Of a stretch of DNA of 64,000 bases, positions 13,115 through 49,096 are shown in pieces. Every line of letters starts with the position of its first letter. Positions within the stretch are counted from its first letter, which is position 1. The notes beneath the pieces were generated by a model, which did not search any database, had not been told where the DNA came from, and saw only the letters and a program-made list of their open reading frames with translations. Source of the stretch: Acidobacteriota bacterium. Lineage in GTDB: Bacteria; Acidobacteriota; Vicinamibacteria; Marinacidobacterales; Marinacidobacteraceae. Made by a program: the position numbers and the translations under genes. Location of the stretch: the NCBI GenBank assembly GCA_022826825.1, contig JAJDUD010000061.1, positions 124,001 to 188,000 of the forward strand, in the 5' to 3' direction.

Positions 13115-13127
13115 CGCGATGCGCGAA

Positions 13128-15857: not shown

Positions 15858-15888
15858 GCCACTCTATCCGGGGCTTGCGGCGCGCCCC

Positions 15889-16722
15889 CTACCGAATCCC
15901 TTCCAACTGGATGCCCCGCACGAAGTACCTCTGGGTAAAGAGGAACAAAAGCGCGATCGGGAGCGCCGCGACCACGCCCGCCACCATCTGGTACGGCCAG
16001 TTGATCTCGTAGGTGGAGTGGAAGGCGGCGATCCCCACCTCCACCACCCGCATCTCCATGGAGCGGGTGACGAGCAGCGGCCACATGAAGTTCTTCCAGG
16101 CGTCGATGAAGGCGAAGAGCGCCAGGGTCGCCACCGCGGGCTTCGCGAGCGGCAGCGCGACGCTCCGGAAAATCCGCCAGTGGCCCGCGCCGTCGACCCG
16201 GGCGGCGTCCTCCAGTTCGCGGGGCAGCGTGCGGAAGTACTGGCGCATCAGGAAGATGCCCCACACGGAGACCAGCTCGGTCGAGACCAGGCCCTGGTAG
16301 CTGTCGATCCAGCCGAGGGCGTCGATCATCAGAAAGCGGGGGATGAGGACGATGACCGCGGGCACCATCATGGTCGCGAGGAAGACCATGAACAGCGTGT
16401 CCCGCCCCGGAAAGTCGCAACGCGCGAAGGCGTAGCCGGCGGCGGTGGCGGTGGCCACCTGGCCGGCGACCACGACCGTGGCGAAGATCAGCGAGTTCAG
16501 GAAGTAGCGTCCGAACGGCTGGGCGGTCAGCGCTTCGGGATAGTTCGACCAGAGCGGGGACTCCGGGAACAGCCGGCCGGAGGAGAAGACCTCCAACTGG
16601 CCCATGAGGCTGGTGGCCGCCATCCACAGGAAGGGCGCCGCCATGACCAGGCAGGCGAAGGCGAGCAGGAGCGTGCGGGAGATCCCGCCGGTCGCGCGAG
16701 CGGCCGTTCTTGCGTCAGGCAT
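15889..16722 (-). CDS. Carbohydrate ABC transporter permease, MalG type
   Basis: A 277-residue inner-membrane permease with six hydrophobic segments. It carries the EAA loop that contacts the ATPase (ELEDAARVDGAGHWRIFRSV, with the conserved 'EAAxxDGA.....F..I.LP' pattern) and ends FVRGIQLEGIR, the usual MalG-family C-terminus. It forms the channel with the larger permease encoded just upstream, whose end overlaps its start by eight bases. The substrate is a sugar or oligosaccharide by family. Confidence 0.9.
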   Translation of the reverse strand: MPDARTAARATGGISRTLLLAFACLVMAAPFLWMAATSLMGQLEVFSSGRLFPESPLWSNYPEALTAQPFGRYFLNSLIFATVVVAGQVATATAAGYAFARCDFPGRDTLFMVFLATMMVPAVIVLIPRFLMIDALGWIDSYQGLVSTELVSVWGIFLMRQYFRTLPRELEDAARVDGAGHWRIFRSVALPLAKPAVATLALFAFIDAWKNFMWPLLVTRSMEMRVVEVGIAAFHSTYEINWPYQMVAGVVAALPIALLFLFTQRYFVRGIQLEGIR

Positions 16723-18532
16723 GCGCGCCCCTTCTTTCGAGAAGGCGGAAGTGGAGCCAGGTGGCGGCGAAGACGACGCCGAAGAGAATCCAGCTCATCG
16801 CGGCCGCGTTGCCGAACCGGAGAAACTCCCACGCCTCCCGGTAGATGTGGTAGACGGCGACGTCGGTCGCCCCCAGCGGCCCGCCCTCGGTCATGACGTA
16901 GACGAGGCTGAAGACCTGGAACGAACCGATCACCGACGTGACCAGCACGAAGAAGAGCGTGTGGCGGAGTCCGGGCAGCGTGATGTGCCGGAAGCGCTGC
17001 CACGGGCCGGCGCCGTCCACCTTCGCGGCGTCGTACCAGACGCGGGGAATGGCCGCCAGTCCGGCCTGAAAGACGACCATCTGGTACCCCACGACCATCC
17101 AGACGCCGATCACCATCAGGCTGACGAGCGCGACGTCCGGCGAGGTGAGCCACGCGACCGGTCCGATCCCGATGGCGCCCAGCGCCCGGTTCGCGAGCCC
17201 GTAGCCGTCGTTGAGGAGCCACTTCCAGACGACCGCGATCGCCACCACGCTCGTGACGCTGGGCAGGAACAGGGCGAGACGCGCCCAGCGGACGGCCCGC
17301 CGCGACTCCCTGGTGAGGAGCGCCAGCGCGAGCGCGACGGCCATCGCCGCCGGGACGTGCAGCGTGAAGACGCCGGTGTTCAAGATCGCCGACCACCAGC
17401 CGCCGTCACTCAGGAGGGCGCGGTAGTTCTCGAGTCCCACGAATGGGTGGGCGGGGTCGACGAGACGCCAGTCGTGCAGGGAGATCCACAGCGAGAAGAG
17501 CAGGGGGCCGAAGGTGAAGACCAGTAGAAGGGCTGCCGCGGGGGCGAGGAATCCCCACGCCGCGAGCGTCCTCGCGAGGGCGCGGGGACGCGCGGCGAGG
17601 GGCAGGAGGAAGAGGACGAGCGAAACCACAAGGGCGGACCCGATCGCCGAGGCGATCAGCGCGACGGTCGGGGAGCTGGTTTCTTCGTAGCCGAGGAAGA
17701 CGAGGTGCAGGGTGCCCGCCGGGGTCTCCGCCCGCCCGGCGGGTCCCTCACGCAGCGCGACGGCCCCCCCGTGGTAGGTGGCGCCGCCGGCCACGACCGT
17801 GTAGCGCGGGGCGGAGCGGAGTTGCGGGTCGGCGGCGATCGCTTCGCCGGCCTCCCGGGGCATGGTCCAGATCCGGTCCGGTTCACCAAGCGCGGCGCCG
17901 CTCGCCCAGGGAAGGCCGGCGACGCGGGCAGCCGCTTCGGGGTCCGCACCGGCCGCCCCGGCGATCCCGGCCGCGCGAAGGCCGCGGGCGAGGCGAGCGC
18001 TGCTGACCGCTCCCAGTTCCCCGTGCGCCCATTGCTGCGCGGCAGCCGCGACGAGCGCAAACAGGGCGGCGCAGAGCAGCGTGGCCGCGGCGGGATAGCG
18101 GGACGGCGGCGGAGCCCGGCGCCTGGCCGCAGCCCACGCCGCCATGCACAGCACCCCGAGCAAGGCGAGAACGAAAGCGGCCCACGGCCACCCGTTTCCC
18201 TCGTCGGCCGGCTCGACCGCAATCCACGCGGCCGGCTGCAGCGCGCCGGCCCGGTAGGCAAAGGCTCCCGGCCCGGATCCTCCCGCTTCCGGCGCCACGA
18301 TCCGGGCGCGACCGTCGAGCAGCGATACGACGTCCGCCTCCGTAACGCCCGGTACCTCATACAGGGAGGCCGCCGCGCGGGCTTCCTCGCGGGTCGCTTG
18401 CTCCCGGGCGCCGGAGAGCGCGTCCGCGGCCACCAACAGGATCACGGCGGTCGCCGCGGCGGCCGCACCGGTCGCCACGAGAGGGGTGACCCCGGCCGCG
18501 CCGGCGGCGTTCGTCGCACCCGCGCCGCTCAC
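16715..18532 (-). CDS. Carbohydrate ABC transporter permease, MalF type, with enlarged N-terminus
   Basis: The second channel subunit, 605 residues. I place the start at GTG 18532, whose GTGA overlaps the stop of the binding-protein gene; the open frame continues upstream, but there it shadows that gene. The C-terminal 290 or so residues are an ordinary MalF/UgpA permease (FLAPAAALLLVFTFGPLLF and AAKVDGAGPWQRFRHITLPG, the EAA loop). The N-terminal 310 or so are extra: a membrane segment, about 45 polar residues, two more membrane segments, then a periplasmic stretch of roughly 110 residues before another hydrophobic segment. This resembles in spirit the large P2 loop of E. coli MalF but differs in layout. 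It may help dock the binding protein. Confidence 0.85.
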   Translation of the reverse strand: MSGAGATNAAGAAGVTPLVATGAAAAATAVILLVAADALSGAREQATREEARAAASLYEVPGVTEADVVSLLDGRARIVAPEAGGSGPGAFAYRAGALQPAAWIAVEPADEGNGWPWAAFVLALLGVLCMAAWAAARRRAPPPSRYPAAATLLCAALFALVAAAAQQWAHGELGAVSSARLARGLRAAGIAGAAGADPEAAARVAGLPWASGAALGEPDRIWTMPREAGEAIAADPQLRSAPRYTVVAGGATYHGGAVALREGPAGRAETPAGTLHLVFLGYEETSSPTVALIASAIGSALVVSLVLFLLPLAARPRALARTLAAWGFLAPAAALLLVFTFGPLLFSLWISLHDWRLVDPAHPFVGLENYRALLSDGGWWSAILNTGVFTLHVPAAMAVALALALLTRESRRAVRWARLALFLPSVTSVVAIAVVWKWLLNDGYGLANRALGAIGIGPVAWLTSPDVALVSLMVIGVWMVVGYQMVVFQAGLAAIPRVWYDAAKVDGAGPWQRFRHITLPGLRHTLFFVLVTSVIGSFQVFSLVYVMTEGGPLGATDVAVYHIYREAWEFLRFGNAAAMSWILFGVVFAATWLHFRLLERRGAHA

Positions 18533-19851
18533 CGCGCCAGCACCTCGTCCACCCGGCGCGCCACCTCCGCCGCGCTGACCTCGAGAGGCTCGCCGATGAG
18601 CAGCCGCCGATCCATGATCTCCACCGCCAGCCTCTCGACCCGGGAGAAGTCGCGCACGGTCGCGCCCCAGGTCATCCGGGCCCGTTCCGCCAGCGCGACG
18701 AACGCGTCCTCCACCCCGGTAGGGTCGGCGGCGGCGATCTCCGCGGCGACGTCGACCCGCGTCGGGATCGCCAGACCCGAGCGCGCCCGGATCCGCTGCG
18801 CCTCGGGCGAGGCGAGAAAACCCGCCAGGTCGATCGCCTGGCGGAGATTCGCCGCGTTCGGAGGCACTGCCCAGCCGGACGCGTAGAGAACGCTCGTCGC
18901 GCCCGGCTGCGACGCATGGTGCGGAATCGGCAGGATCGCCAGGTCCAGCGCGCCGGCCCGGACCAGGTCGCGGAAGACGGGGAGGGTCCAGTGCCCGGAC
19001 AGCAGGAACGCCTGTCCGCCCGAAGCGAACCGGGCCTCCCGCCCCGGGTCCGCCTGCTGGACGAACTGGGCGCCCGGCGTCAGGCCCTCGTCGGCCAGTT
19101 CGGTGAGAAAGGCGTAGGCGGAGAGCGCCGCCGGGCCGTCGAGGTAGCCCGCGGCGCGGTCCCCGCCGGGCGCGAGGATGTCTCCGCCCGCCGACCAGAC
19201 GAACGGCACCCACTGGAAGAGGTTGCGGGGGAAATCGAACCCGTAGACATCCGGTCGGCCGTCCCCGTCCCGATCGGTGGTTGCCGACCGGGCCGCGCGG
19301 CGGAACTCCTCCCAGGTCCAGCCGTCCGCCCAGGCGTCGGCTTCCGCCCCTGCACCCCCCCCGATCCCCGCGCCCGCCAGCACCGCGCGGTTCGCGTAGA
19401 TGACCATCGGGGTGAAGTCCTTGGGCAGCGCGAACAGGGACCGGCCGCGCCGAAACGCCTCCAGCACCTGCGGGAAGATCCGGTCGGCGCGGAAGTTCAG
19501 CGCCGTCTGGTACGGCGCCAGGTCCACCGCCAGCCCCCGGTCCACGAACGTGGGGATGTCGGGCGAGTCGAGGAGGTACACGTCGGGGGGGTGGCCCGCC
19601 GCGATGGAGGTGAGGAGCCGTTCCTCGTATCCGTTCGGCGCGGACTCGAGGAGGACGCGGGTCCCCGGGCGCAGGGCCTCGTAGCGATCCGCGACCTGCT
19701 GCTCGATCTCGAGTTCGTAACCGCCTGCCCAGAGCGCGACCCGAAGGGTGGTGGCGCCGGGCGAGACGCCGGAAGCCGCTGGAAAGCAGCCGATGGCGGC
19801 GAGGGACAGGGCGGCGGGAAAGAGGATCCGGCGAACGACGGTCGCGGTCAC
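18529..19851 (-). CDS. ABC transporter sugar-binding lipoprotein
   Basis: A 440-residue solute-binding protein of the MalE/UgpB type. Starting at GTG 19851 (GTGA overlap with the ATPase gene) it begins with a lipoprotein signal ending LAAIGC, so it is lipid-anchored on the periplasmic side. Typical family stretches are EIEQQVADRYEALRPGT, AAGHPPDVYLLDSPDIPTFV and LYASGWAVPPNAANLRQAID. It would deliver the sugar to the two permeases encoded immediately downstream. An earlier in-frame start would place about 30 residues before the signal and is less likely. Confidence 0.9.
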   Translation of the reverse strand: MTATVVRRILFPAALSLAAIGCFPAASGVSPGATTLRVALWAGGYELEIEQQVADRYEALRPGTRVLLESAPNGYEERLLTSIAAGHPPDVYLLDSPDIPTFVDRGLAVDLAPYQTALNFRADRIFPQVLEAFRRGRSLFALPKDFTPMVIYANRAVLAGAGIGGGAGAEADAWADGWTWEEFRRAARSATTDRDGDGRPDVYGFDFPRNLFQWVPFVWSAGGDILAPGGDRAAGYLDGPAALSAYAFLTELADEGLTPGAQFVQQADPGREARFASGGQAFLLSGHWTLPVFRDLVRAGALDLAILPIPHHASQPGATSVLYASGWAVPPNAANLRQAIDLAGFLASPEAQRIRARSGLAIPTRVDVAAEIAAADPTGVEDAFVALAERARMTWGATVRDFSRVERLAVEIMDRRLLIGEPLEVSAAEVARRVDEVLAR

Positions 19852-21011
19852 GCCGGGGTTCCTGGATGCGAACCCCGGCCCGGCTGCGGCGCCGCACCGG
19901 TCCGGCTGCCGTCCGGGCCGAAGAGATGCGTCCGCTGCCACGCGACCGAGACGTCCACGCGGTCTCCGGCCGCGATGCGCAGCGCGGAGGGCGCCCGCGC
20001 CACCCAGGCCGCATCGTCCGGCCCGTCGAGATGAATCCGCTGCTCGCTGCCGAGCGACTCGACGCGCAGGGCGGTTGCGGTGAACTCGGGGGACGGGTGC
20101 GGGCCGGGGCGCGTACCCGCGGAACCCGGCGGCGGCCCGGAGGCGGGAGGGGCGACGACGGCGACCGTGAGGTCCTCGGGTCGGACGCCCAGCGTGGCTT
20201 CGGGGTGGGGCGAGGATCCCGGGAAGACGAATGGGCCGCCCGCGAGGCGGCCCTCCCCGTCGCGGGCCAGACGGAGCCGGTTCATGGGAGGCGATCCCAC
20301 GAAGGCGGCCACGAAGAGGTTGGCGGGACGCCGGTAAATCTCGTGCGGCGTCCCCAGTTGCTGCACCCGGCCGCGGTCCATCACCGCCACCCGCTGGCCG
20401 AGCGAGAGCGCCTCGACCTGGTCGTGCGTGACGAAGATCATGGTCGTTCCGAGGCGGCGGTGGAGCGCGGCGATCTCGTCGCGGGTCTGCAGCCGCAGCG
20501 CGGCGTCCAGGTTCGACAGCGGCTCGTCAAAAAGGAAGACGCCGGGGTCGCGCACCATCGCCCGTCCCAGCGCCACCCGCTGCTGCTGTCCTCCCGAGAG
20601 TTGGCCGGGACGCCGCGACAGGAGCCCACCGAGCCCCAGCACTTCGGCTACCTCGCTCACGCGACGCCCGATCTCGGCCGGACCCGCGCCGCGTACCCGG
20701 AGGCCGAAGCCCAGGTTCTCGGCGACGGTCATGTGCGGGTAGAGGGCATAGCTCTGGAACACCATCGCCACGTCGCGGCTGCCCGGCGCGACCTCGTCCA
20801 CGCACCGGTCCCCGATCCACACCTCTCCCGCGTCGTGCTCCTCCAGGCCGGCGATGAGGCGCAGCAGCGTGCTCTTGCCGCACCCCGACGGACCCACCAG
20901 CACCATGAGTTCGCCGGGGCGGATCTCGAGATCGACGTCCGCCACGGCCGTCACGTCCCCGAAACGCTTCCGGACGCCCTTCAGCACCACCGCCCGCGGC
21001 TCGCGTGTCAT
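19848..21011 (-). CDS. Carbohydrate ABC transporter ATPase, MalK/UgpC type
   Basis: The 387-residue ATPase that powers the importer. Walker A GPSGCGKST, signature LSGGQQQRVALGRA, Walker B VFLFDEPLSNLDA and switch FVTHDQVEA are all intact, followed by the TOBE/MOP regulatory domain (EATLGVRPEDLTVAVV). The ATG at 21011 sits in an ATGA overlap with the stop of the preceding glycosidase gene. ATPase, binding protein and both permeases are encoded in order with four- or eight-base overlaps, so the importer is complete. Confidence 0.93.
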   Translation of the reverse strand: MTREPRAVVLKGVRKRFGDVTAVADVDLEIRPGELMVLVGPSGCGKSTLLRLIAGLEEHDAGEVWIGDRCVDEVAPGSRDVAMVFQSYALYPHMTVAENLGFGLRVRGAGPAEIGRRVSEVAEVLGLGGLLSRRPGQLSGGQQQRVALGRAMVRDPGVFLFDEPLSNLDAALRLQTRDEIAALHRRLGTTMIFVTHDQVEALSLGQRVAVMDRGRVQQLGTPHEIYRRPANLFVAAFVGSPPMNRLRLARDGEGRLAGGPFVFPGSSPHPEATLGVRPEDLTVAVVAPPASGPPPGSAGTRPGPHPSPEFTATALRVESLGSEQRIHLDGPDDAAWVARAPSALRIAAGDRVDVSVAWQRTHLFGPDGSRTGAAPQPGRGSHPGTPA

Positions 21012-23221
21012 CGGCGCCGCCCCTCGTCCAGCGTCTCCCACCCCACCCGGAGCGCCCGCTCCCGGGTCCCCTCGTAGCGCGCCGCGTCCACCGCCAGCGA
21101 GACCCGCCCGTCGTCGAGCTCCACCGCGACGTTGCGCCCGCGGACGCGCACCGGTCCCAGCCGCACCCGGGACAGCCCGTGCGGCAGCGGCCACACCTCG
21201 ACGCCCTCCTCGTCGAGGTGAAGCCCGGCGATTCCCCGGGCGAGCAGGTCCACCACCCACGAGTGCTGGTAATCGTCGATGCCGCGGAAGTGGCAGGCCC
21301 GCCCGGTGTAGGGGTTGTAGTGCTCGAAGGAGTTGGGTCGGCCCGGATCGCCGCCTTCGAACATGAGATGCACGAAGCGGGCGAGCCGGTTCGCGGCCAG
21401 CTCCCCCGCGCGCCGGTTCCCGCGCCGCCAGGCGCGGAGCAGCCCTTCGATCACGTGGCTGGTCGTCATCGGCCACACGCGGCCGTTCCACGGGCAGTTG
21501 CGCCGCTTCCCGCGCCAGACTCCCTCAGCGGAGAAACGGGGGTCGTCCACGCTCGACGACGGCAGCGGAAAGGGGGTGCCGAAGGTCCGCGGGTCCTCGA
21601 GGTGGTCCATCAGGGCGTCGAGGCGGAGGGCGTCCACGCGGCCGGTCAGCAGCGGGTAGAAGCCCACCGCGGCCTTGACGCCGGTGCGTTCGAAGGTGCG
21701 GCCGTCCACGTCGGTGAAGAGGCGCGCCTCGGGGCACCACATGCGCTCCATGATCGCGCTTTGGCAACGCATCTGCAGCGCCTGCCAGTCGGAGGCGTCG
21801 CCCGGCCGCCCGACCCGCCCGGCGAGCCTGGCGAGCGCGCGGAAGAGCTGATGGGCGTAGACGGTCACGTCAATGCCCTTGAGGCGCAGGCGCGGCTGCC
21901 AGCCGCGCACGTCCGCCTCCGCGTCGACCGCCATGTACCGCGACATGTACTCCTGTCCCGTCTCGAAGTGGTTCACGACGGTGAACATGCCCGAGCCCTC
22001 GGGGTCGCGCGAACGGTTCAGCCAGCGGGCGTAGCGGGACAGGCCCTCGTAGCAGCGGGCGAGGGCGGCGGGTTCGGGGTGCATCGCGTGCACCGCGAGC
22101 AGCGAGTCGCCCCAGTTCGCGTGGTAGAAGTCGGTGCGTTCGAGGTGGTTCGGGTAGAGCCGTCCGTGCAGCGACCCGTCCTCCTTCTGGTTGTCGAGGA
22201 AGTTGAGGAGCGATCCCCACGCCTCGCGCCCGCTCTCGCGCCAGCGCATCTCCATCATGTGGCACTGCGCGCTGTAGGTGATCGGGACGTGGAAGTACTC
22301 GATCCCCTCCGCAATACAGGGATGGCGCACGTTGCCCGAACGGCCCTCGATGCGGTTGAGCCCCAGGCCGTGGATGCGGTAGTCGAAATAGCGGTCGAGC
22401 CGGGGATCGCCGCAGGAGAAGGCGGGGAAGCCGGCGAAGAAGGACTCCCAGGTGAGGCGATCGGCCGGCGCCCGGATCCCTTCCCACGGTGGATCGGACA
22501 GCCGCGGGTCGAGATGCATGCGGAGCGCGAGGGGCCCCTGGTCCGCGGCGGGAACGGGAAACGCCACCGCCGTCCAGATCCAGCCGCTCCGACCGTCGGC
22601 GGGCTCGGGGATACCGCCAGCGTCCTCGATGTCCGCGGTCTCCCCTTCCGCGAAGGGTGACACCGTCCAGTCGGGATCAGCGCCGCCCTCTGAAAGAAGA
22701 ATCCGGCGCCACGCGGGAACGCCGCACCCCCGGATCTCCATCCCGACCGACAGCTCCTGCCCGGCCCGGTCGGTGAGGCGTCGCACCCACCGCACGCCCC
22801 CGGAGGAGGGGCGCATCCCGGACACCCCCCGGGAAACCGATGCCGCCGGCTGGGCCGTGAACGCGACGAGGAATCCCGCGGCCGCTCCGGGGGGGAGTGT
22901 CCAGGCGCTCTGGAGGATCCCGCCGGGGAGGACCTGCCGCGTCTCGACCGCCAGCTCGCCCCCGCCGTTCCGCCACTCGGCGACCAGCGCGCCCGGGCGC
23001 CAGCGGAGTCCGGCAGGTCCCGCCGACAGCGGAATCTCCGCGCCCGAGCCGTCCAGCAGGGCCACCGAAAAGCAGGGTCCCACCTCGTGCTGCAGCAGAT
23101 GGGCCGCGTCCCAGAATCCGGGCCGGTGCAGCCAGCGGGGAAACGGCGGCGCCCAGAGCACCCCGTCGAGTCCTCCCAGGCACCACTTGTCGGGCCGGGC
23201 GAGGGCTTCGATGCGGCTCAC
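21008..23221 (-). CDS. Cytoplasmic glycoside hydrolase, MGH1/GH63-like
   Basis: A 737-residue protein without a signal peptide. It has an N-terminal beta-sandwich of about 260 residues and then an (alpha/alpha)6 barrel: DRYFDYRIHGLGLNRIEG, EGIEYFHVPITYSAQCH, NCPWNGRVWPMTTSHVIEG and HYNPYTGRACHFRGIDDYQH resemble the mannosylglycerate-hydrolase-like/GH63 group. It is the first gene of the importer operon and overlaps the ATPase gene by four bases, which suggests it acts on the imported sugar. The locus thus has two cytoplasmic glycosidases and one exported one. The exact glycoside is not predictable from sequence. Confidence 0.78.
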   Translation of the reverse strand: MSRIEALARPDKWCLGGLDGVLWAPPFPRWLHRPGFWDAAHLLQHEVGPCFSVALLDGSGAEIPLSAGPAGLRWRPGALVAEWRNGGGELAVETRQVLPGGILQSAWTLPPGAAAGFLVAFTAQPAASVSRGVSGMRPSSGGVRWVRRLTDRAGQELSVGMEIRGCGVPAWRRILLSEGGADPDWTVSPFAEGETADIEDAGGIPEPADGRSGWIWTAVAFPVPAADQGPLALRMHLDPRLSDPPWEGIRAPADRLTWESFFAGFPAFSCGDPRLDRYFDYRIHGLGLNRIEGRSGNVRHPCIAEGIEYFHVPITYSAQCHMMEMRWRESGREAWGSLLNFLDNQKEDGSLHGRLYPNHLERTDFYHANWGDSLLAVHAMHPEPAALARCYEGLSRYARWLNRSRDPEGSGMFTVVNHFETGQEYMSRYMAVDAEADVRGWQPRLRLKGIDVTVYAHQLFRALARLAGRVGRPGDASDWQALQMRCQSAIMERMWCPEARLFTDVDGRTFERTGVKAAVGFYPLLTGRVDALRLDALMDHLEDPRTFGTPFPLPSSSVDDPRFSAEGVWRGKRRNCPWNGRVWPMTTSHVIEGLLRAWRRGNRRAGELAANRLARFVHLMFEGGDPGRPNSFEHYNPYTGRACHFRGIDDYQHSWVVDLLARGIAGLHLDEEGVEVWPLPHGLSRVRLGPVRVRGRNVAVELDDGRVSLAVDAARYEGTRERALRVGWETLDEGRRR

Positions 23222-23287: not shown

Positions 23288-24289
23288 TCAGGCGGAGTCG
23301 CGACCTCGAAACCAGTTCACCGTCTCCAACAGGGTGACCCGGCCGTCGCGGGGGTCGTGGCCCAGTTCCCGCGCCGCCTTTTCGGAACTGAAATACCAGT
23401 AGCAGGCGGCCATTTCCCGGCTGATGCGGTCCACCGCCGGTTCCCGCCCCACCTGACGCGCAACCTCCTCGGTGAGCAGCGCGCCCGCGGTGTAGAGGCC
23501 GCGCGAGAGCCGCAGGCGCGGCGCGGGCGAGCCGGACACCTCCCCGAGGCGGGCGAAGAAGTCCTGGAAGCTCCAGTTGTGTCCGCCCAGCAGGTAGCGC
23601 TGGCCGCTCCGTCCCTTCGCCATCGCGGCCACGACCCCGGCCGCCGCATCGCGGACATCCACGAAGTTCAATCCGCCCGGCGGAATCACGCTGAGCTGGC
23701 CGGACAGGAACCGCAGCACGTCCCCGGTCGAGGACAGCCGTTCGTCCCCGGGGCCGAGGAGCAGCGACGGGTTCACGATCACCACCTCGATTTCCCCGGC
23801 GTCGGCGAGCAGCGCGCGCTCCTGCAACCACTTGCTCCGGTAGTAGGGCCAGCGTCCGATCAGCTCGATGGGAACGGGCGCCTTTTCGTCGCAGTCGGGC
23901 TCCGGCTCGCGCGAAACCGCAGTGGTTCCGCTGGTGGACACGAGCAGGATCCGCTCCACGCCCGCCCGCCGGGCGGCCGCCGCCAGCGTGCGGGTGCCGT
24001 CCACGTGAACCCGCTGGAGACTGGCGGCGGCGTCCGGATCGCGGGAGACCCGCCCGGCGAGGTGGAAGACCCTCCCCACGCCATCGAGCGCCGCCTCCAG
24101 TCCCGTTCCCGAGACCACGTCGCCGACCACGACGTCCACGCCGCGGGCCGAGAGTTCGGGCGCGGGCTGGCGGGCCAGCACCCGAACGGGCTCGCGTTCC
24201 TCGAGCAGCAGGGGCAGCAGATGACTGCCGAGAAAGCCGGTGGCGCCGGTGACCAGTACCGGAGCGGCTGGAAGAGTCGCTTCGGTCAC
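23288..24289 (-). CDS. NAD(P)-dependent epimerase/reductase (extended SDR)
   Basis: A 333-residue Rossmann enzyme: TGATGFLGSHLL binds the cofactor near residue 15, and YYRSK supplies the catalytic Tyr-xxx-Lys. It looks like the dihydroflavonol reductase/3-beta-HSD branch of extended SDRs. I choose GTG 24289 because the conserved fold begins ten residues later and the frame upstream overlaps the neighbouring gene. It lies 22 bases after the big lipid enzyme gene and probably shares its transcript, so a role in reducing or isomerising a lipid intermediate is plausible. The sugar operon follows 66 bases later. Confidence 0.82.
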   Translation of the reverse strand: MTEATLPAAPVLVTGATGFLGSHLLPLLLEEREPVRVLARQPAPELSARGVDVVVGDVVSGTGLEAALDGVGRVFHLAGRVSRDPDAAASLQRVHVDGTRTLAAAARRAGVERILLVSTSGTTAVSREPEPDCDEKAPVPIELIGRWPYYRSKWLQERALLADAGEIEVVIVNPSLLLGPGDERLSSTGDVLRFLSGQLSVIPPGGLNFVDVRDAAAGVVAAMAKGRSGQRYLLGGHNWSFQDFFARLGEVSGSPAPRLRLSRGLYTAGALLTEEVARQVGREPAVDRISREMAACYWYFSSEKAARELGHDPRDGRVTLLETVNWFRGRDSA

Positions 24290-24311
24290 GGTAGGGCCCG
24301 GTCGCCGTTCT

Positions 24312-27300
24312 TCAGCCGACGGGGGTCGGATCGGGTACCCGGTCGTTCGCCGGTGAAGCGGCGGAACCTGAGGACTTCTGGCTGGTTGGCTCCGCGCTCT
24401 CGAGGATGCGCGCCGCCTCCTCGTCAAGCTGGATCGGCTCCTGACGCCCCAGGCGCTCGACCATGGTCTGAACGAGTCCGGTCACCCGACCTTCCGCAAC
24501 CGCGGCCCGGACCCCTCCCCCGGCGAAGCGAAGCAGGAAATCGTGGGAGAGGAACGGTCCGATCCGCGCCGCCACGGTGCGCGAACGGAGCCCGACGGCG
24601 CCGGGGGGGAACGCTCCCCAGGTATCGAGATGGATCGGCAACACGCCGACCCGGCAGCGGTACGCCAGGTGCGCGAACCCGCGCCGGAACTTCTGGATCT
24701 GCCCGCTCCGGGACCTCGTTCCTTCCGGGAACACCAGCACGCTGTAGCCCTGGTTGAGGTATCCCGCGGCGCGGTCCAGCGACTCCCGGAGCGAGCCGCG
24801 GCGTTCCATCGGTACGAGGTTCGTGAAGTTGCCGAAGAAGGTGCGTTTCACCCGGTTGTCGAAGAAGTAGTCGGCGGCGGCCAGGGCCAACAGGTTCGCC
24901 CCCGCGTCGCCCAGAGCCATCTTCACGAGCCCCATGTCGAGATGGGACCCGTGATTCGCCACCACCAGGTAGTTCGTGTGGTTCGGCACGTGCGCCCGAC
25001 CCGTGAAGGTGGGCTCCAGCACCTGGTGGTAGAACCAGTGCTGGACCTCGGTCAGGGCCGCACGCCCGGCCTTGGCCACCGCGGGCGGGATCTCGATCTC
25101 GTCCTCGTCCCGCTTCTTCCGGGATTCAGCGCGGCGTGGACGGCGGCCCCGAACGCCCGCCTCGGGCGTCCGCACGGCGAGCACCAGCTCCTCGATGGTG
25201 TTCATGTTGGCCAGGGCCTCGGGAGACGCCGACTCACCGAATTCACTGTCGAGCCCGGCCGCGAGTTCGTTGTACATGAGGCTGTCGAAGCCCAGCTCCG
25301 CGAAGGAGGACGAGGTCCGGATCTCCGCAACGGGACGCTCGCAGATGGCGGCGATGAGCTCCAGAATCCTGTTCCCCGAGAAGGCCTCCTCGCCGGATGC
25401 GGCGGCCGCTTCGCGGCGCCGGTCGCGCAGCCAGCGCACGAGCTCGGCCCGTTTCACCTTGCGGGTCGCCGTCCGGGGGAGCGTCCCGTCCGTGAACTCG
25501 ACGGTCTTGATCCGCTTGTGCAGGGGCAATCGGGACGAAACGGAGCGGAAGTGGGTCTCGATGCGCTGCCGGCCTTCCGGGGTCTTCTCCTTGGGGACGA
25601 CGACCGCCGCCACCTGCTCGGCCACCCCGTCGGGAAGCCCGACCACGGCGAGTTCGGCGATCAGGTCCGGCGCGGCGTAGACCTCTTCCACTTCGTCCGG
25701 GTAGATGTTCTTGCCGCCGCTGTCCACGATCACGTCCTTGCGGCGGCCGACCAGGAAGAGGTGCCCGTCGTTGTCGCGGCGTCCCAGGTCTCCCGTGTAG
25801 AGCCAACCGTCGCGAAGCGCTTCCGCCGTCGCCTCCTCGTTTCCGTAGTACCCCGCCATGACGTTCGGGCCCTTCGCCGCGACCTCGCCGACCCCCGAAG
25901 CGTCGGGGTCCACGATGCGGATCTCGATCCCGGGGAGCGCCTTGCCGACGCTGCCGATGGGGACGGGGCCGTCCGGCGAGGTCACCGTCAACACGGGGGC
26001 GGCTTCCGTGAGCCCGTAGCCCTGGGCGATGTGGAACCCGAGGCCGCGGAATGCCTTCCAGGTCGATTCGGAGAGCGCGGAAGCGCCGCTGATCAGGTAG
26101 CGGATCCTGCCTCCCAGCGCGGTGTGCACCGGAAGGAAGACCGCGGGCCCGATGTTGACTCCGGTGTCCTCCCGGAGGAGGTGCGCCGCGTCGATCAGGG
26201 CGGTGGCGAGGTCTTCCGCCCGCTGCGACCGCTCGGCGAAGGGAGCCAGGATGCGCCGACGCAGGAGATCCCAGAGGGCCGGCACTCCCACGATGCAGGT
26301 GGTGTGCCCCTTCTGCAGCTCGGTGTTGATGGCTTCGGGGCCGACCTCCTCCAGATAGGCGATCTGGGCGCCCCGCGAGAGCGGCAGCAGGAAGCCGGTG
26401 GTGAACTCGAAGGAATGGTGGAGGGGGAGGATGCTGAGCGCACCGTCCTTCTCGTCGATGTCGTACACCGACAGCAGCTTGGCCACCAGCGAGGTGAAGT
26501 TCCGGTGCGTCAGCATCACCCCCTTGGGCGTGCCGGTCGTCCCGGACGTGAAGAGAATGGAGGCCAGCGCCGCCGGGCTGGTCCGGACGGACTTCGCGGG
26601 CGCCGTTTCCTCGTCCTCTCCATCCTCCAGCGCGAAGACGTCCCGGAACGGGTGGGCGGGGGCGGGCGGCCCGGCGCCGTTATCGCCGGCAAGCCCCGAA
26701 TGCCGCTCGAACAGCGCATCGCTCATCAGGACCGCCCTGGCGTCTCCGAGCCGGAGCAGCCGGACGATCTCCTCGCGCCGCAGGTCGCGTTCGAGGGGAA
26801 TGGCGGTCGCCCCGATCCGCTGGATGGCGAAGTACGCCATGCCCCATTCGGGGGAGTTCTCTCCGATCAGCCCGACGTGGTCGCCGGCGGCGAGCCCTCG
26901 GGCAGCCAGGAACGCGGCCCCCCGGAGAACGCACTCCCGGAGATCGGCGTAGGTGTAGCGCTCCTCACGGCCGCCGCGGGTGATCCGCATCGCGACCCGC
27001 CCGGCGTGGTTCTTGGTACAGGCCTCGAACAGCTCGTTGATCGTCCGGTAGGTGTAGACGCGCTTTTGCGCGCGCCGCTGGCCGCGTTCCTGGTCCTCGA
27101 GCGCCGGGAACACCCATCGCTCGAGGCCCGGCAGGTGTACGTGGAGCCAGTAGTCGTACCAGTCGATTTCCTCGGGATTGAAGAAGAGCTTTCCTTCGTT
27201 TCCGTCGAGCCGGGAGAAGAGATCGTGCGTGTTGTCGGCGCGGAAAATGAACTCCTCGCCGGCGATGAAGGGCCGGAACGTGTGGTACTGCCGCTCGCCC

Positions 27301-28733
27301 TGGACGACGAAGTCCTCGAACGAGTCCACGTTCCGCTGGAGCGCCTCGACGACGCCGACCAGGGGGCCGACGGGTTTGTCGCCAGTCCGTTCCAGCACGC
27401 CGGACAGCGCGGAGGCGGACTGCCGCATCCAGTTGAGGGTGTGCTTCTCGAAGCGGTCGGCGCGGACCGCCTGGGCCTCCATCCGGGCGAGCGCCTCGTT
27501 CCAGAGCTTCACTCCGGTGGGACGGTCGCGGAAGTGCCGGCGCTTGTAGATGCCGACGAGGTCCACGAGCCGCTCCACCCGCGCCGGATTCCGGTCCCCG
27601 CTGGACACCTGGTACACGAGGTGGGGCTCCGACACGATCGTTTCGGCGGCCACCGCCAGCGTCGCCGACGCAACCAGGTCCACCGGCACCACGTCCAGGA
27701 CCACCCCCGGGCCGACCGGAAACAGGTTCTGGCCGCGGAGCGCCATCCGAACGAGCGGGGCGCTGGTGGTGAAGCCCTCGTTCCAGCCGGTGTGGGGGAA
27801 CGAGAGCGCGCTTTCCACCACCGCCGGCCGCACGATCGCGCGCGCGACGCCCTCGGCGCCCGCCACGAGCTGATCCCCGAGGCTCTTCGTGTAGGTGTAG
27901 ATGTTCGGCCAGCCCCAACCGTGCGCCTTCTCGATGCCGAGATCGCGGAGCCGGCGCCGGATCCACTCCTTCCGCTCGCGGGCGATGGCGAGCGACATCG
28001 AACGCGCATCGTCCGGGTCGCGGCCTTCCTCCGCGAACCGCTTGCGCGCCGCTTCCCGGAAGGCGTCCGCGCGCGACTTGTCCTCCGCTTCGTCGCGCAC
28101 CCGGACGGCGAGGCGTTCGCAGTCCTCGATCTCCTTCTCGACCGAGAACTCCTGGTCCTCGCGGTCCCGCCGCGGGAAGTACCCGATCAGGGGTTCGTCC
28201 TCACGAACCTCGCCGGATCGCATCCCCGCCACGAAACAGGTGCTGATGTGCACGAGGGCGGGCCGCTTCATCCTCCGGGCGAAGGCGATGGTGTTCCTCG
28301 TCCCGTGGACGTTCGTCTGGAGCGCCGCCTCGAGCGAGGGGTTGAACGTCACCCGGCCGGAACAGTTGAGCACCAGGTCGATGTCGGCGGCGATCTCGGC
28401 GGCGCGTGCTTCCGGATAGCCGAGGTTGTCGCTCGTGATGTCCCCGCCGAGGACGACGATCTTCTCGTCCAGGAAATCGTGGAGGGCGGCCCCGTGGCGC
28501 TCACGCAGCGGCGAGAGCGCCGGGGAGTTGTCCATGATGTCCTTGAACCGCACCCGGCTCTCCGCCTCGCCGGCGGCCCGCACCATGAGATAGACGCGCC
28601 GGATCTCCGGGAAGAACTCGAGGAGCATCCCGAGACAGACCTTCCCCAGGAACCCGGTCCCGCCGAGCAGCAGGATGCTCCGTCCGGCGAAGGCTGCGCC
28701 CGCGTCGATCCGGGGACGGGCGCTCTCGGTCAC
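24312..28733 (-). CDS. Multidomain acyl reductase-ligase-ACP-acyltransferase (ElbD-like)
   Basis: A 1473-residue fusion, start GTG 28733. Residues 1 to about 520: fatty acyl reductase (GGTGFLG at 24-30, YTYTK near 280, then a FAR_C-type helical region). About 570-1100: acyl-AMP/CoA ligase (FTSGTTGTPKG near 725, YGLTEAAP, WLYTGDLGRRDNDGH near 975, lysine loop LPRTATRKVKR near 1090). About 1120-1190: acyl carrier protein with the phosphopantetheine serine in LGFDSLMYNEL. About 1230-1420: PlsC acyltransferase (NHGSHLD near 1260, FPEGTRS near 1333). This matches my recollection of the myxobacterial ether-lipid enzyme ElbD. It could activate a fatty acid, load it on the carrier, reduce it to fatty alcohol and acylate a glycerol backbone. 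All key motifs are intact. Confidence 0.9.
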   Translation of the reverse strand: MTESARPRIDAGAAFAGRSILLLGGTGFLGKVCLGMLLEFFPEIRRVYLMVRAAGEAESRVRFKDIMDNSPALSPLRERHGAALHDFLDEKIVVLGGDITSDNLGYPEARAAEIAADIDLVLNCSGRVTFNPSLEAALQTNVHGTRNTIAFARRMKRPALVHISTCFVAGMRSGEVREDEPLIGYFPRRDREDQEFSVEKEIEDCERLAVRVRDEAEDKSRADAFREAARKRFAEEGRDPDDARSMSLAIARERKEWIRRRLRDLGIEKAHGWGWPNIYTYTKSLGDQLVAGAEGVARAIVRPAVVESALSFPHTGWNEGFTTSAPLVRMALRGQNLFPVGPGVVLDVVPVDLVASATLAVAAETIVSEPHLVYQVSSGDRNPARVERLVDLVGIYKRRHFRDRPTGVKLWNEALARMEAQAVRADRFEKHTLNWMRQSASALSGVLERTGDKPVGPLVGVVEALQRNVDSFEDFVVQGERQYHTFRPFIAGEEFIFRADNTHDLFSRLDGNEGKLFFNPEEIDWYDYWLHVHLPGLERWVFPALEDQERGQRRAQKRVYTYRTINELFEACTKNHAGRVAMRITRGGREERYTYADLRECVLRGAAFLAARGLAAGDHVGLIGENSPEWGMAYFAIQRIGATAIPLERDLRREEIVRLLRLGDARAVLMSDALFERHSGLAGDNGAGPPAPAHPFRDVFALEDGEDEETAPAKSVRTSPAALASILFTSGTTGTPKGVMLTHRNFTSLVAKLLSVYDIDEKDGALSILPLHHSFEFTTGFLLPLSRGAQIAYLEEVGPEAINTELQKGHTTCIVGVPALWDLLRRRILAPFAERSQRAEDLATALIDAAHLLREDTGVNIGPAVFLPVHTALGGRIRYLISGASALSESTWKAFRGLGFHIAQGYGLTEAAPVLTVTSPDGPVPIGSVGKALPGIEIRIVDPDASGVGEVAAKGPNVMAGYYGNEEATAEALRDGWLYTGDLGRRDNDGHLFLVGRRKDVIVDSGGKNIYPDEVEEVYAAPDLIAELAVVGLPDGVAEQVAAVVVPKEKTPEGRQRIETHFRSVSSRLPLHKRIKTVEFTDGTLPRTATRKVKRAELVRWLRDRRREAAAASGEEAFSGNRILELIAAICERPVAEIRTSSSFAELGFDSLMYNELAAGLDSEFGESASPEALANMNTIEELVLAVRTPEAGVRGRRPRRAESRKKRDEDEIEIPPAVAKAGRAALTEVQHWFYHQVLEPTFTGRAHVPNHTNYLVVANHGSHLDMGLVKMALGDAGANLLALAAADYFFDNRVKRTFFGNFTNLVPMERRGSLRESLDRAAGYLNQGYSVLVFPEGTRSRSGQIQKFRRGFAHLAYRCRVGVLPIHLDTWGAFPPGAVGLRSRTVAARIGPFLSHDFLLRFAGGGVRAAVAEGRVTGLVQTMVERLGRQEPIQLDEEAARILESAEPTSQKSSGSAASPANDRVPDPTPVG

Positions 28734-28747
28734 GGGGCCGCCTCGCG

Positions 28748-30346
28748 TCAGGAGACCTCGGGGATCATGATCGGCGGGACGTGGAGCATGGTGATTTCCG
28801 CGGAGCGGCCGTGCGTGCTCCGCGCCATCGCGATCGCTTCGGTCACCGTCTCCGCTGATTCCCAGCCGAGGATCTCGGGGACGTGCTGGTTCTTCGCGCC
28901 GGCCACGATGATCCGGCCGACGTGCTGGCGCCCGTTTTCGCCCCAGTACCACATGAAGAAGGGATGGGCCCCGTGGTAGGCGTTCCCGTCCCGGTACATC
29001 TGGACGTAGGACGGGTTGTGCGCGAATTCCTCCTCGTACTTGGTCCTGAGCACGAAGGGGTCCCGGGTTTCCGGGAGCAGCCGGTGGAAGAACTCGATGT
29101 AGCTGGGGTGAAACAGGGGATCGAAGTCGTCGTAACAGGGGTGGGCCAGGATCAGGGTGCCGCCCTTCTTGATCAGGGGTTTGCCCCGGTAGAGGTTGAA
29201 CAGGTAGCCCGGACCCATGACCTGGACGAGGAGCGGGTTCAGGATCGAGTTCACGTTGTAGGGCGAGATGTAGGGGATCCCGGAGAGCAAAATGTCGCAC
29301 TGTCCCTTCACGGGGACGGCGTACTGCTGGAAGGAACGCTCGAGCGTCTTCTCGTGAACGGGCTCGGTGCGGCCGGCGTAACAGCCGATCAGCTCGAAGG
29401 CGCCCGGGATGCGGTGCAGGAACTGCCGTTTCGCCGGCGCGGGAAGGCGGCTCAGCGACCAGCGCGTTCCCGCGAGCTTCAGCCGGTCGAGGTCGCTGAA
29501 CTCATCCTCGTCCTTCCCGAGAAACGAGAGGGCGTCGGAGTACATCCGGTTGTTGAGCACGGTCTCCACGTGAAACACGTTCAGGTGCCGATCCACGATC
29601 TTTCCCATCCGGTCCACCTTGCGGCTCAGTTCCGACTTGGCCGGATCCATATAGCCGTCGGAATCGCGGATCGTCTGCGGCTCGTGGTGGGGCCTGAGGC
29701 TCTCGTAGTCGCAAAGTCCCACGGTCACCGATTTGTGGCCCCCGTCCATCGGGACCAGGTTGATGTTCAGGTAGATGACGAGGTCGCTTTCCGTCACCCG
29801 CCGGTTCACCCGGACCGGCTCGTGATGGCGGGTCTTCCCCAGCGCGACCATGCCGTTCGGATCCTCGGCGTCGTGGTTGTAGTAGCGACCGGGAAAGTAC
29901 GCCTTGTGGATGTCCGACCCCACCATCCGGCGCATCTCCGATTCGGTCATCTTCCGGTGGAGCGAGTTCGCGATGATCAGGTGGACGTCGTCCACCCCGT
30001 GGTCGCCGAGCATCTCCAGCACGATCTCGAGCGCGGTCTGGCGAACGTCGGGAGTGGCCATCGGCGGCAGCGGCAGGCTGATGTCGTCGAGAGCGATCGT
30101 GACCCGCATTCCCGGGCGAAGCTGCGCGTAGAGCGGATCGCAGCCCAGCGGGTGGTTGAGCGCGTGCCGGATGGCGCCGCGCGGGTTCGGCAGCCCGCGG
30201 ATCGGGGGCGGCGGATAGACCACCCGGGTGCCGATCGGCAGGTGTTCCTCCAGAAAGTCCTCGCCGTAGTGCAGGACGCGGGCGGCCGAGTCGTTGTCGA
30301 TGAAGACGATCCCGGGGTCCGTCTTGTGGCGCAGGGCGGGGGTCAT
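28748..30346 (-). CDS. LarA-like (DUF2088) protein
   Basis: A 532-residue cytoplasmic protein related to the N-terminal domain of nickel-pincer lactate racemase Lar[21 protein letters not shown] and [16 protein letters not shown] match the family's 'D-x-(S/T)RPxP' and 'GxHR' regions, although here the arginine of the usual 'TRP' is replaced and the motif reads DDISLPLP. It is longer than LarA (about 420). It ends 14 bases before the start of the large fusion enzyme gene, so the two are presumably co-transcribed. By family it might racemise, epimerise or dehydrogenate a 2-hydroxy acid or polyol. Its role in a lipid pathway is unexplained. Confidence 0.72.
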
Positions 30347-30372
30347 GCGGTGGGCTTCCTTCCTGGCTCGCT

Positions 30373-31089
30373 CTAGAGCGCGGGGGTGAGGTTCGGCTGG
30401 CTGAGGTCGATGACCGGCCAGTCGTGGTGCCGCGCCGTGCTCCTCAAGCGGACATCCGGGTTGGCCGCGGTGGGATGTCCGACCACGCTCAGCATGGGCA
30501 GGTCGGACATGCTGTCGGCGTAGGCGTAACTATCGTTCAACGAGAGCCCCTCGCGTTCCGCATACTCCCGGATCCAGAGGGCCTTGCTGGCGCTCGCCAT
30601 CACCGGCGGCGCCAATCGGCCGGTTGCCCGGCCGTCCGCGAACTCCAGGCGATTGGCGACGAACTCGGTGATGCCGAGGTCGTCGAGGAGGGGACGGACG
30701 GACACCTCGAGCGCGCCCGTCACGACCACCTGCCGCAGGCCGCTGCGGCGCGACTGCTCGATGAGCGCCCGGGTGCCGGGGAAGATGCCGGGGCGGATCA
30801 CGTCCCGGTAGAGATCCTCCGCGAGCGAGCGCAGCCGGTCGTAGGACTGGCCCCGGTACCACTTGAAGAACAGATCGTTGAAGAGTTTGCGGCTGTAGAA
30901 GTCGGTCGCCGGGAACAGCGGGATCCCGGCGAGCGTCGAGGCGGTGGTCTTGAGACTCCGCAGGATCCCCTGGTCGTTCCGCGCGTAGTACCCGAGGACA
31001 TGAACGAGATTCGTGCGGATCAGGGTGCCGTCGAGGTCGTAGAACGCCGCCGCTTTCGCCGGACGGTTCGCTGGTTCGCCGCGTGACAT
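30373..31089 (-). CDS. HAD-IB family phosphatase
   Basis: A 238-residue phosphatase of the haloacid dehalogenase superfamily, subclass IB (SerB-like). Motif [12 protein letters not shown] carries the nucleophile and general acid aspartates. Motif II is VVTGALEVS. Motif III/IV ends with [11 protein letters not shown], binding magnesium. The ATG at 31089 lies just before the domain; a longer form is possible. It is the promoter-proximal gene of the lipid locus and 26 bases upstream of the LarA-like gene. In glycerolipid pathways such enzymes remove phosphate from lysophosphatidate- or phosphatidate-like intermediates, so it may produce the alcohol acceptor here. The substrate is inferred. Confidence 0.83.
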
Positions 31090-31222: not shown

Positions 31223-32293
31223 GTGATTCAACTGCCAACCCCGAGAGACTCTTCGCAAGCCATCCGGCGCGTCGCGATTACGTCGGTCGGGGCCTACCTT
31301 CCGGACCGGGTGCTGTCGAACGACGACCTGGAAAGAATGGTGGACACGTCCGACGAGTGGATCCGGGAGCGCACCGGCATCAGCGAACGCCGGATCGTGG
31401 AAAAGGGCACCGGATGTTCCTTCCTGGCCTCCCGCGCGGCTCAGGACGCGCTGCGGCGGCGGGGCATCGCGGCCGACGACATCGACCTCATCGTGGTCGC
31501 CACCGTGACCCCCGACATGAGCTTCCCCGCCACCGCCTGCCTGGTCCAGGACCAGATCGGCGCCAGCCGCGCCTGGGGATTCGATCTGTCGGCGGCGTGC
31601 AGCGGCTTCAACTTCGCGCTCGCCGCGGGGACGCAGTTCGTCGCCAGCGGAGCCGCGGAACGGGCGCTGGTGATCGGGGCCGACGTGATGAGCTCGATCA
31701 CCGACTACGAGGACCGCGCCACCTGCATCCTGTTCGGCGACGCCGGGGGGGCGGTGCTGCTCGAGGCCGCCCAGGACGGCGAGGGCATCCTCGGATTCAA
31801 CAATCAGGTGGACGGCTCCGGGTGTGACCTGCTCAAGATGCCGGCCGGGGGCAGCGTCCGCCCGCCCACCCACGAAACCGTGGACCGCAAGGAGCACTAC
31901 CTGCAGCAGCAGGGCAAGGCGGTCTTCCGCTTCGCCGTGCGCAACTCGGCCGACGCCGCCGAGGCACTGCTGACGGAACTCGGCTTCTCGCGCGACGACG
32001 TTTCCTTCCTGGTCTGCCACCAGGCGAACGCCCGCATCATCGACGCGGTCGCGCGGCGGCTCCAGCTTCCGCCGGAACGCGTGGTGAAGACCATCCACAA
32101 GTACGGCAACACGACCGCCGCCTCGATTCCCACCGCGCTCCGCGACGCTCTCGATCGCTCGCTGCTCGCGCCCGGCGACCTGGTGCTGTTCAGTTCGGTG
32201 GGCGCCGGGCTGACCATCGGCACCGCCGCGATTCGCTGGGGCGGCGAACGGACCGTCGCCACCTCGGCGGCGACGAACTCCACCGGCCCCTGA
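31223..32293 (+). CDS. fabH: 3-oxoacyl-ACP synthase III (KAS III)
   Basis: A 356-residue condensing enzyme that starts fatty acid synthesis by joining acetyl-CoA (or another primer) to malonyl-ACP. The catalytic Cys-His-Asn triad is intact: [21 protein letters not shown] and YGNTTAAS. The N-terminus ([28 protein letters not shown]) is canonical. The start is GTG at 31223 with GAGGGG about 14 bases upstream. It is divergent from the lipid locus across 133 bases, and the two could share regulation. The next gene overlaps its stop by four bases (CTGA). A specialised KAS III feeding the adjacent lipid pathway is possible; I cannot distinguish that from housekeeping FabH. Confidence 0.93.
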
Positions 32294-38005: not shown

Positions 38006-39454
<1,449 letters not shown>

Positions 39455-40336
39455 TCAGTCGAGCGCTTCGGCGCCGCTTACGACTTCGAGAATCTCCTTC
39501 GTGATCGCCGCCTGCCGGACCCGGTTCATGGTCAGGGTCAGGTCGGCGATGAGTTCGTTCGCGTTCTTGGTTGCGTTGTCCATGGCGGTCATGCGCGCCG
39601 CCTGCTCGGCGGCCACCGATTCGAGCAGCGCCCGCCAGATCTGGTATTCGACGTGCCGCGGGAGGAGTTCCGCGAAGATCTCCGCTTCCGTTGGCTCATA
39701 GAAGAACTCCCGCGCGGTTCCGTCTTCGGAACCCGACAGCTCCAGCTTCTCGAGCGGCAGCAGCCGCTCGACCCGGACGTCCTGGCGAAGGATGTTCTTG
39801 AACTCGTTGAAGACCAGATAGATCGCGTCGAGGCCTTCCGGATCCTCGGGGTCCTCGCGGCGGTAACGCTCCATCAGGGGCGCCGCGACCTCCCGGGCGT
39901 GTTCGTAGCCGAGCGCCCGGAAGATGTCCTCGAGCGGATCCACGAGGCGCACCCCGCGGCGGCGGAAGTGCTCCTTGCCCTTGCGCCCGACGGCCCGGAC
40001 TCCAACCTCCTGCTCGCTCAGGGACTTGAGGAGGATCTCGGCGCGCTTCAGGACATTGGTGTTGAAGGATCCGCACAGCCCGCGGTCCGACGTGATCACC
40101 ACCACTTCGACCCGGCGCGGCGGCCGCTCGCGCAGCAGCGGATGGCTGTCGGTCCTGGCCCCCACCACCACCGAGTTCAGCACCTCCAGGATCCGCGCCG
40201 CGAAGGGCCGCGCCGAGACGATGGCCTCCTGGGCCCGGCGCAGGCGCGCGGTAGCGACCATCTTCATCGCCCGGGTGATCTGCTCGGTGTTCCGCACGCT
40301 GCGGGTGCGGCGGCGGAGTTCGAGGAGGGTCGGCAT
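39455..40336 (-). CDS. atpG: ATP synthase gamma subunit
   Basis: 293 residues. The N-terminal and C-terminal long helices that form the rotating central shaft are clear (LRRRTRSVRNTEQITRAMKM; MDNATKNANELIADLTLTMN), with the central Rossmann-like domain (VVVITSDRGLCGSFNTNVL) between. It lies 22 bases downstream of atpA. Confidence 0.96.
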   Translation of the reverse strand: MPTLLELRRRTRSVRNTEQITRAMKMVATARLRRAQEAIVSARPFAARILEVLNSVVVGARTDSHPLLRERPPRRVEVVVITSDRGLCGSFNTNVLKRAEILLKSLSEQEVGVRAVGRKGKEHFRRRGVRLVDPLEDIFRALGYEHAREVAAPLMERYRREDPEDPEGLDAIYLVFNEFKNILRQDVRVERLLPLEKLELSGSEDGTAREFFYEPTEAEIFAELLPRHVEYQIWRALLESVAAEQAARMTAMDNATKNANELIADLTLTMNRVRQAAITKEILEVVSGAEALD

Positions 40337-40357
40337 GGGACGGTACCGGAGGGGCGC

Positions 40358-41920: not shown

Positions 41921-41963
41921 GGGTTTTCCTATAACGTATTGATTCCAGGGCCTTTATGATGCA

Positions 41964-42512: not shown

Positions 42513-42516
42513 CCTT

Positions 42517-43544: not shown

Positions 43545-43714
43545 GAAACCTGCGGCCTACAGGAGGCGAGGGAGCGAGCCGCCCTACCGGAAGTGGGGAG
43601 GAATCGGTCGGGAAACCGAGGGCGGCCGGATGCGCGCGGTCTGGCGAACCAGCCCGCCACGGACGGCGCGAAGGCTATCACCCGGCCCCGGGGTTGCCAA
43701 GGATTCGGGCGTTG

Positions 43715-44143: not shown

Positions 44144-44147
44144 CGTT

Positions 44148-45781: not shown

Positions 45782-45826
45782 CTGGAGGGGTCCGAGACTA
45801 CCACGATGATCCGTCGCGTTACCTTG

Positions 45827-45842
45827 TGTTTCACGTGAAACA
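45827..45842. other. parS: parS centromere site
   Basis: A perfect 16-base match to the consensus TGTTTCACGTGAAACA, lying between the rsmG stop and the parA start and about 5.5 kb from the origin. It is the only perfect copy I found in the window. Confidence 0.95.
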
Positions 45843-45851
45843 ACGCGGCGT

Positions 45852-48256: not shown

Positions 48257-48258
48257 GA

Positions 48259-48585: not shown

Positions 48586-48586
48586 T

Positions 48587-49039: not shown

Positions 49040-49096
49040 TTTCCCCTGCGCCAAACCGGACACACCGTCAGCGCGCACCGAACGGCCGGCCGGCGG

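Follow-up and report, generated by a model that had tools for sequence, protein, structure and literature searches.

Bacterial ether lipids underlie both the branched glycerol dialkyl glycerol tetraether (brGDGT) palaeothermometers and myxobacterial signalling. In Myxococcus xanthus, the elb operon comprises elbA (NAD epimerase), elbB (haloacid dehalogenase, HAD), elbC (unknown function), elbD (a fusion of reductase, acyl-CoA synthetase (ACS), acyl carrier protein (ACP) and acylglycerol-phosphate acyltransferase (AGPAT)) and elbE (NAD epimerase) (PMC9131029). Disruption of elbA had no effect on lipids, elbD mutants lost most vinyl and alkyl ether lipids, and disruption of the gene for alkylglycerone-phosphate synthase (AGPS) had only a minor effect, the steps before the final desaturation being unknown (PMC9131029). 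How the ether bond is formed without AGPS in the ElbD route is the question addressed here. We analysed a 64,000-nucleotide stretch (the window) of contig JAJDUD010000061.1, which belongs to an Acidobacteriota genome of 3.98 Mb in 77 contigs. A run of four minus-strand genes at 31089-23288 encodes, in order, a HAD phosphatase, a LarA homologue, a 1473-residue multidomain protein and a short-chain dehydrogenase/reductase (SDR). The run is probably an elbBCDE-type ether-lipid operon, and we tentatively propose that its LarA-like protein, which occupies the elbC slot, stands in for AGPS at the ether-bond step.

Comparison with described elb loci

According to Pfam, the ElbD-like protein contains NAD_binding_4 (residues 24-357; 6e-45), a C-terminal 'Sterile' remnant under its cut-off (484-541), AMP-binding (570-963; 1.5e-77), AMP-binding_C (1014-1092), PP-binding (1122-1184; 1e-11) and Acyltransferase/PlsC (1242-1368; 7e-22). 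The corresponding motifs are GGTGFLG at 24, YTYTK at 279, SGTTGTPKG within 725-738, LGFDSL at 1147, NHGSHLD at 1260 and FPEGTRS at 1335. These domains agree with an initial annotation of the window, which had placed a reductase, an AMP ligase, a carrier protein and a PlsC acyltransferase at these coordinates. The domain order reductase-ACS-ACP-AGPAT is common to this protein and its counterpart in the M. xanthus elb operon (Lorenzen et al. 2014; MIBiG BGC0000871).

Gene order is likewise shared: elbB-elbC-elbD-elbE corresponds to the HAD, elbC-slot, ElbD and NAD-epimerase genes of the window, with intergenic gaps of 26, 14 and 22 bp. The annotation had set the SDR, LarA-like and HAD genes in the same direction as the large gene and had suggested the elb cluster for comparison; all four lie on the minus strand, and the B-C-D-E order matches that of PMC9131029. 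It is on domain and gene order that the likeness rests. The M. xanthus operon has elbA in front, whereas the window operon is without an elbA-like gene and has a divergent FabH-like gene beyond the HAD gene instead. The ElbE-like SDR also matched an HpnA-like profile, under that profile's cut-off.

The four-gene order was kept in seven Acidobacteria metagenome-assembled genomes (MAGs; 92-95% ElbD identity) and in one Vicinamibacteraceae MAG (72%). Among the more distant Acidobacteriota that we examined (44-53% ElbD identity), most kept it too. Some of the most diverged loci had no SDR inside the stretch examined. Because the order is kept across relatives, the arrangement is not due to chance. 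The LarA-like gene was present in all 14 genomes of the window's order in the comparison set. Judging from isolate names only, the nearest relatives are probably from sponges.

Loci of this kind have been reported before. The accessible text of PMC9426513 describes, in 2022, ElbD-type clusters of sponge Acidobacteriota and Poribacteria as nonribosomal peptide synthetase (NRPS)-like gene cluster families that match the window locus in core architecture, in phylum and, very likely, in habitat; the locus probably represents one of them. That text lists flanking hydrolases, dehydratases and oxidoreductases, and mentions neither a LarA-like gene, its residues nor a relation to AGPS. Subdivision-4 Acidobacteria, which share the phylum of the window, have been reported to carry whole elb operons as well (Sinninghe Damste 2018, cited in PMC10087280), and a link to brGDGT synthesis is proposed there; the larger group of relatives in our set (family code f32) may be those organisms. 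ElbD homologues further occur in many Black Sea phyla (PMC11868695). The basic elb finding is therefore an instance of a known phenomenon, and the view in the initial annotation that such loci are little explored outside myxobacteria does not hold. In the literature searched, we found no link of elbC to DUF2088, lactate racemase or ether lipid, and no fixed elb context for LarA groups 14, 15 or 16. The LarA homologue in the elbC slot, together with its negative association with AGPS, thus appears to be new.

The same annotation had proposed an alkylglycerol or plasmalogen locus. The alkyl-ether part is supported by the architecture, the gene order, the glycerolipid neighbours and the distribution of AGPS: diacylglycerol kinase and PlsY are found in split and distant relatives of the locus, and true AGPS in ElbD genomes that lack the LarA-like gene, so that the product is probably an ether glycerolipid. 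The plasmalogen part is not indicated, although the search for the CarF/PEDS1 desaturase (PF10520), which gave no match in the host genome, gave none in the control genomes either.

The LarA-like protein of the elbC slot

The elbC-slot protein is a full-length member of the NCBIfam family LarAH_14_15_16. We aligned it to the malate racemase Mar2 and to the ordinary LarA of the host genome. The protein keeps the first catalytic histidine (H130), the lysine that carries the nickel-pincer nucleotide (NPN) cofactor (K205, for K184 in LarA) and the nickel-ligand histidine (H221, for H200). Of the canonical catalytic pair, H108 and H174, the second is gone along with four residues of its loop, which contains no histidine, and Leu91 replaces the arginine (R75 region) with which LarA holds the substrate carboxylate. 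By contrast, the other LarA of the host retains both catalytic histidines and the arginine. H130, K205 and H221 were invariant across all aligned copies, whereas position 91 was never arginine and the second catalytic histidine was missing in every elb-linked copy. This single-histidine, non-canonical nature and the position in the elbC slot had been overlooked when the neighbour was first named LarA-like.

The arginine and the two histidines bind the carboxylate common to all known LarA substrates (PMC11623692). The second histidine is also missing in LarA groups 14 and 15 (PMC12611868), a trait shared by the window protein, which scores above the curated cut-off for groups 14/15/16. Since both this histidine and the carboxylate arginine are lost, the elbC-slot protein is, on its residues, probably not a 2-hydroxyacid racemase of the ordinary kind. 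An AlphaFold model of the protein, built from nine near-identical sequences, had a mean confidence score (pLDDT) of 38 and was discarded. Outside elb loci, two further Acidobacteriota LarA homologues (L076:7855 onward and L075:7966 onward) are without the second catalytic histidine; their loops read NTNCFRGFNGGWK and VLGNPYGGYSGGYK, and they possibly represent other single-histidine subfamilies.

To place the gene in its genomic context, we used a set of 396 Acidobacteriota genomes. LarAH14-16 copies of at least 500 bits occurred in 39 genomes, 36 of them above the curated cut-off, and one further genome held a fragment. An ElbD-type reductase lay within 8 kb on the same contig for 34 of the 39 full-length copies. 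The remaining five were near a contig end or on a contig of ~5 kb, and their lack of linkage is explainable because the contig ends at or near the elbC-slot gene. Over 21 loci, the LarA-like, ElbD and HAD proteins gave parallel pairwise distances (Spearman 0.95-0.96), as is expected for co-inherited genes, although shared ancestry alone would give the same result. Plasmid records contained no full-length LarAH14-16 match and no match spanning most of ElbD.

Variants of the locus also included the LarA-like gene. A split version in three genomes (G095, G131 and G188) had a stand-alone reductase beside the LarA-like gene, an SDR and diacylglycerol kinase, with PlsY nearby; HAD preceded the LarA-like gene in the first two. 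In a distant ElbD clade (G218 and G148), the order was kinase-ElbD-HAD-Zn alcohol dehydrogenase-LarA-like.

The cofactor genes larC and larE were both found in the host genome. We dropped their co-occurrence as proof of NPN use, as LarC does not discriminate: 17 of 20 comparison genomes that had no LarAH14-16 profile match also carried it.

Distribution of AGPS and a candidate ether-bond step

The AGPS pathway (MXAN_1676 type) has the same presumed end product as the window operon, an sn-1 alkyl glycerolipid. AGPS is a FAD enzyme without homology to LarA. We searched the 396 genomes with a 592-aa AGPS from genome G140 (1e-159 to mammalian AGPS), accepting as true AGPS matches of at least 250 bits and 46% identity. 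Such a protein was found in 18 genomes. The host genome had no AGPS match at 1e-25, and its two FAD-oxidase_C proteins resemble D-lactate/glycolate dehydrogenase.

AGPS was present in nine of the ten genomes with a fused ElbD and no LarA-like gene, the tenth being 72% complete, and in seven of the 40 that carry the LarA-like gene, which is a fragment in one of the 40 (Fisher p 4e-5, ancestry not corrected). The AGPS gene of G307, one of the seven, has internal stops. Closely related genomes differed in the same way. In G376 (100% complete, intact contig), HAD abuts the reductase, the LarA slot is empty and AGPS is present; its tree neighbours G095 and G188 show the reverse, with the LarA-like gene but without AGPS. 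In genus g42, G172 has AGPS and G008 has the LarA-like gene instead, and within one family G140 and G218 differ likewise. The contig of G172 stops just past ElbD, so its lack of the LarA-like gene rests on a 92%-complete MAG. G314 has both genes. Its LarA-like contig, however, shares 96.7% identity with that of G218 across 2.4 kb, although the two ElbD loci cannot be aligned, and the MAG is flagged as 6% contaminated; G314 is therefore probably AGPS-only, with the LarA-like contig as G218-like contamination. An adh_short SDR follows AGPS in G156, G172 and G314, as expected of alkyl-dihydroxyacetone phosphate (alkyl-DHAP) reductase, and G283 has AGPS, PlsC and SDR genes together. In G314 (L148, with L068), AGPS lies two genes from ElbD, and AGPS and an adh_short SDR stand beside the ElbD gene. 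Overall, mutual exclusion of AGPS and the LarA-like gene is suggestive, not proven.

Because the LarA-like gene tends to be present where AGPS is missing, its product may be the missing ether-bond step. In such a pathway, the ligase domain of ElbD would activate a fatty acid, the carrier domain would hold it and the reductase domain would convert it to the fatty alcohol (or aldehyde). Acylation of glycerol phosphate would fall to the PlsC domain, and HAD and SDR would trim or reduce glycerolipid intermediates. That these steps proceed without free intermediates, as initially annotated, is conjecture. AGPS swaps the acyl group of acyl-DHAP for a fatty alcohol, an exchange for which the C2 ketone is needed. 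The LarA-like protein, in place of AGPS, would most likely generate this ketone, which AGPS finds ready-made, by using NPN to take a hydride from the C2 hydroxyl of 1-acyl-glycerol (phosphate); the fatty alcohol would then take the place of the acyl group, and the hydride would go back to the same face. NPN enzymes are known to form a transient ketone by hydride removal from a secondary alcohol (PMC12611868). With the hydride returned to the same face, one catalytic histidine would suffice and no separate alkyl-DHAP reductase would be needed. Hidden-redox exchange of this type would account at once for the residue pattern, the missing carboxylate arginine and the exclusion of AGPS. We nevertheless consider it unlikely that the elbC-slot protein is a new ether synthase of exactly this description, namely a one-histidine NPN enzyme with transient C2 oxidation, acyl/alcohol swap and hydride return. 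The corollary, an organonickel reaction other than racemization and a non-homologous replacement of AGPS and alkyl-DHAP reductase together, is doubtful to the same degree.

Several observations weigh against an ether-bond role. In an ancestry-aware test on the reductase tree, only three independent pairs were supported (sign-test p at least 0.25), and AGPS went the opposite way in ~1.9 of the three on average. AGPS and the LarA-like gene co-occur in G157, G227, G141, G283 and G242. Four genomes of one genus (G227, G283, G189 and G141; L060, L155, L157 and L156), 97-98% complete, have neither LarC nor LarE over the cut-off, and still carry an intact elbC-slot gene with the cofactor lysine and an ordinary LarA. 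This absence fits poorly with NPN use: the alternatives are another source of the cofactor or an elbC-slot gene that does not depend on NPN in these genomes. Three of the four also carry AGPS (Fisher p 0.013 versus other carriers, ancestry not corrected). A Frankia LarAH14 showed none of seven racemization activities (PMC7583248), which fits a non-racemase but yields no positive activity. A separate elbC effect in M. xanthus is not described in the review (PMC9131029). Pontiella has elbD homologues yet no detectable ether lipids (PMC11868695). Finally, the substrate of the LarAH family might rather be a head-group or sugar acid.

In one alternative, the operon is an ordinary elb operon and the LarA-like protein an accessory 2-hydroxyacid or polyol epimerase for the head group or side chain, with no role in the ether bond. 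LarA proteins of known activity are 2-hydroxyacid racemases or epimerases (PMC7583248, PMC11770544), the HAD and Zn-alcohol dehydrogenase neighbours in the distant clade fit polyol metabolism, and AGPS and the LarA-like gene coexist in some genomes. However, the carboxylate arginine and second catalytic histidine are missing from all the elb-linked copies, and an accessory epimerase does not predict that loss of the LarA-like gene coincides with AGPS in G376, f31, f58 and G140. We regard this explanation as rather unlikely. A second alternative is that ancestry produced the negative association by accident: two ancient ElbD lineages would happen to differ in both genes, and MAG incompleteness and contamination would account for the rest. 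The small number of supported pairs, the incomplete G172 MAG and the apparent contamination of G314 are in its favour; the contrasts nevertheless recur in genus g42, family f65 and the split clade, the slot of G376 is empty on an intact contig, and correcting G314 would strengthen the pattern. We consider an accident improbable. It is also quite unlikely that the fatty alcohols from this locus serve something other than glycerol ethers, be it wax esters, acyl-polyketide release or a secreted glycolipid: the reductase family does serve wax and polyketide pathways, a related clade with HAD-reductase fusion clusters has no LarAH14-16 gene and no AGPS, and the Pontiella result fits, but the fused PlsC, the diacylglycerol kinase and PlsY neighbours, the AGPS of LarA-less ElbD genomes (genome-wide or two genes away) and the lipid phenotype of the M. 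xanthus elbD mutants all point to glycerolipids.

Replacement of AGPS by the LarA-like protein, if true, would give a function to the single-histidine LarA groups 14-16, of which group 14 had been tested with no activity found, and would make the ether-bond question in the ElbD route directly testable. To our knowledge, NPN reactions have so far been racemizations or epimerizations, and this one would be the first of another kind.

Related fusions and surroundings of the operon

Reductases of the same family occurred in other fusions. A ~1160-aa reductase and ACS fusion without a PlsC match was found at L089:9019 onward (G386; also G238 and G334). HAD phosphatase-reductase fusions of ~800 aa were present in L082-L087 (e.g. 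L084:8477-10942), in clusters with a second NAD_binding_4 reductase, an ACS, an enoyl-CoA hydratase and a pyruvyl-transferase-like protein. We rejected the ~800-aa fusions as AGPS-pathway loci on their neighbour genes and the lack of AGPS in those genomes.

Genes of the window operon and its divergent neighbour (window coordinates)
Feature	Position (strand)	Length	Basis
ElbB-like HAD-IB phosphatase	30373..31089 (-)	238 aa	ATG at 31089; DLDGT; PF12710 8e-35; TIGR01490 119 bits (cut-off 98)
elbC-slot LarA-like protein (LarAH14/15/16 family)	28748..30346 (-)	532 aa	NF052592 816 bits (cut-off 740)
ElbD-like multidomain protein	24312..28733 (-)	1473 aa	GTG start 14 bp past the elbC-slot stop; Pfam domains and motifs
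ElbE-like NAD-dependent epimerase/SDR	23288..24289 (-)	333 aa	PF01370 3e-27; GATGFLG and YYRSK motifs
Beta-ketoacyl-ACP synthase III (FabH-like), divergent, past HAD	31223..32293 (+)		

The FabH-like gene adjoins the operon only in close relatives. Right after the operon, at 11180-23221 on the minus strand, the window encodes three MGH1/GH116-like glycoside hydrolases, a sugar-binding protein and two Ugp/GlcT-like permeases. On the other side, 38006-57967 contains genes for F-type ATP synthase, YidC and gyrB-gyrA, and the window is therefore probably near the replication origin.

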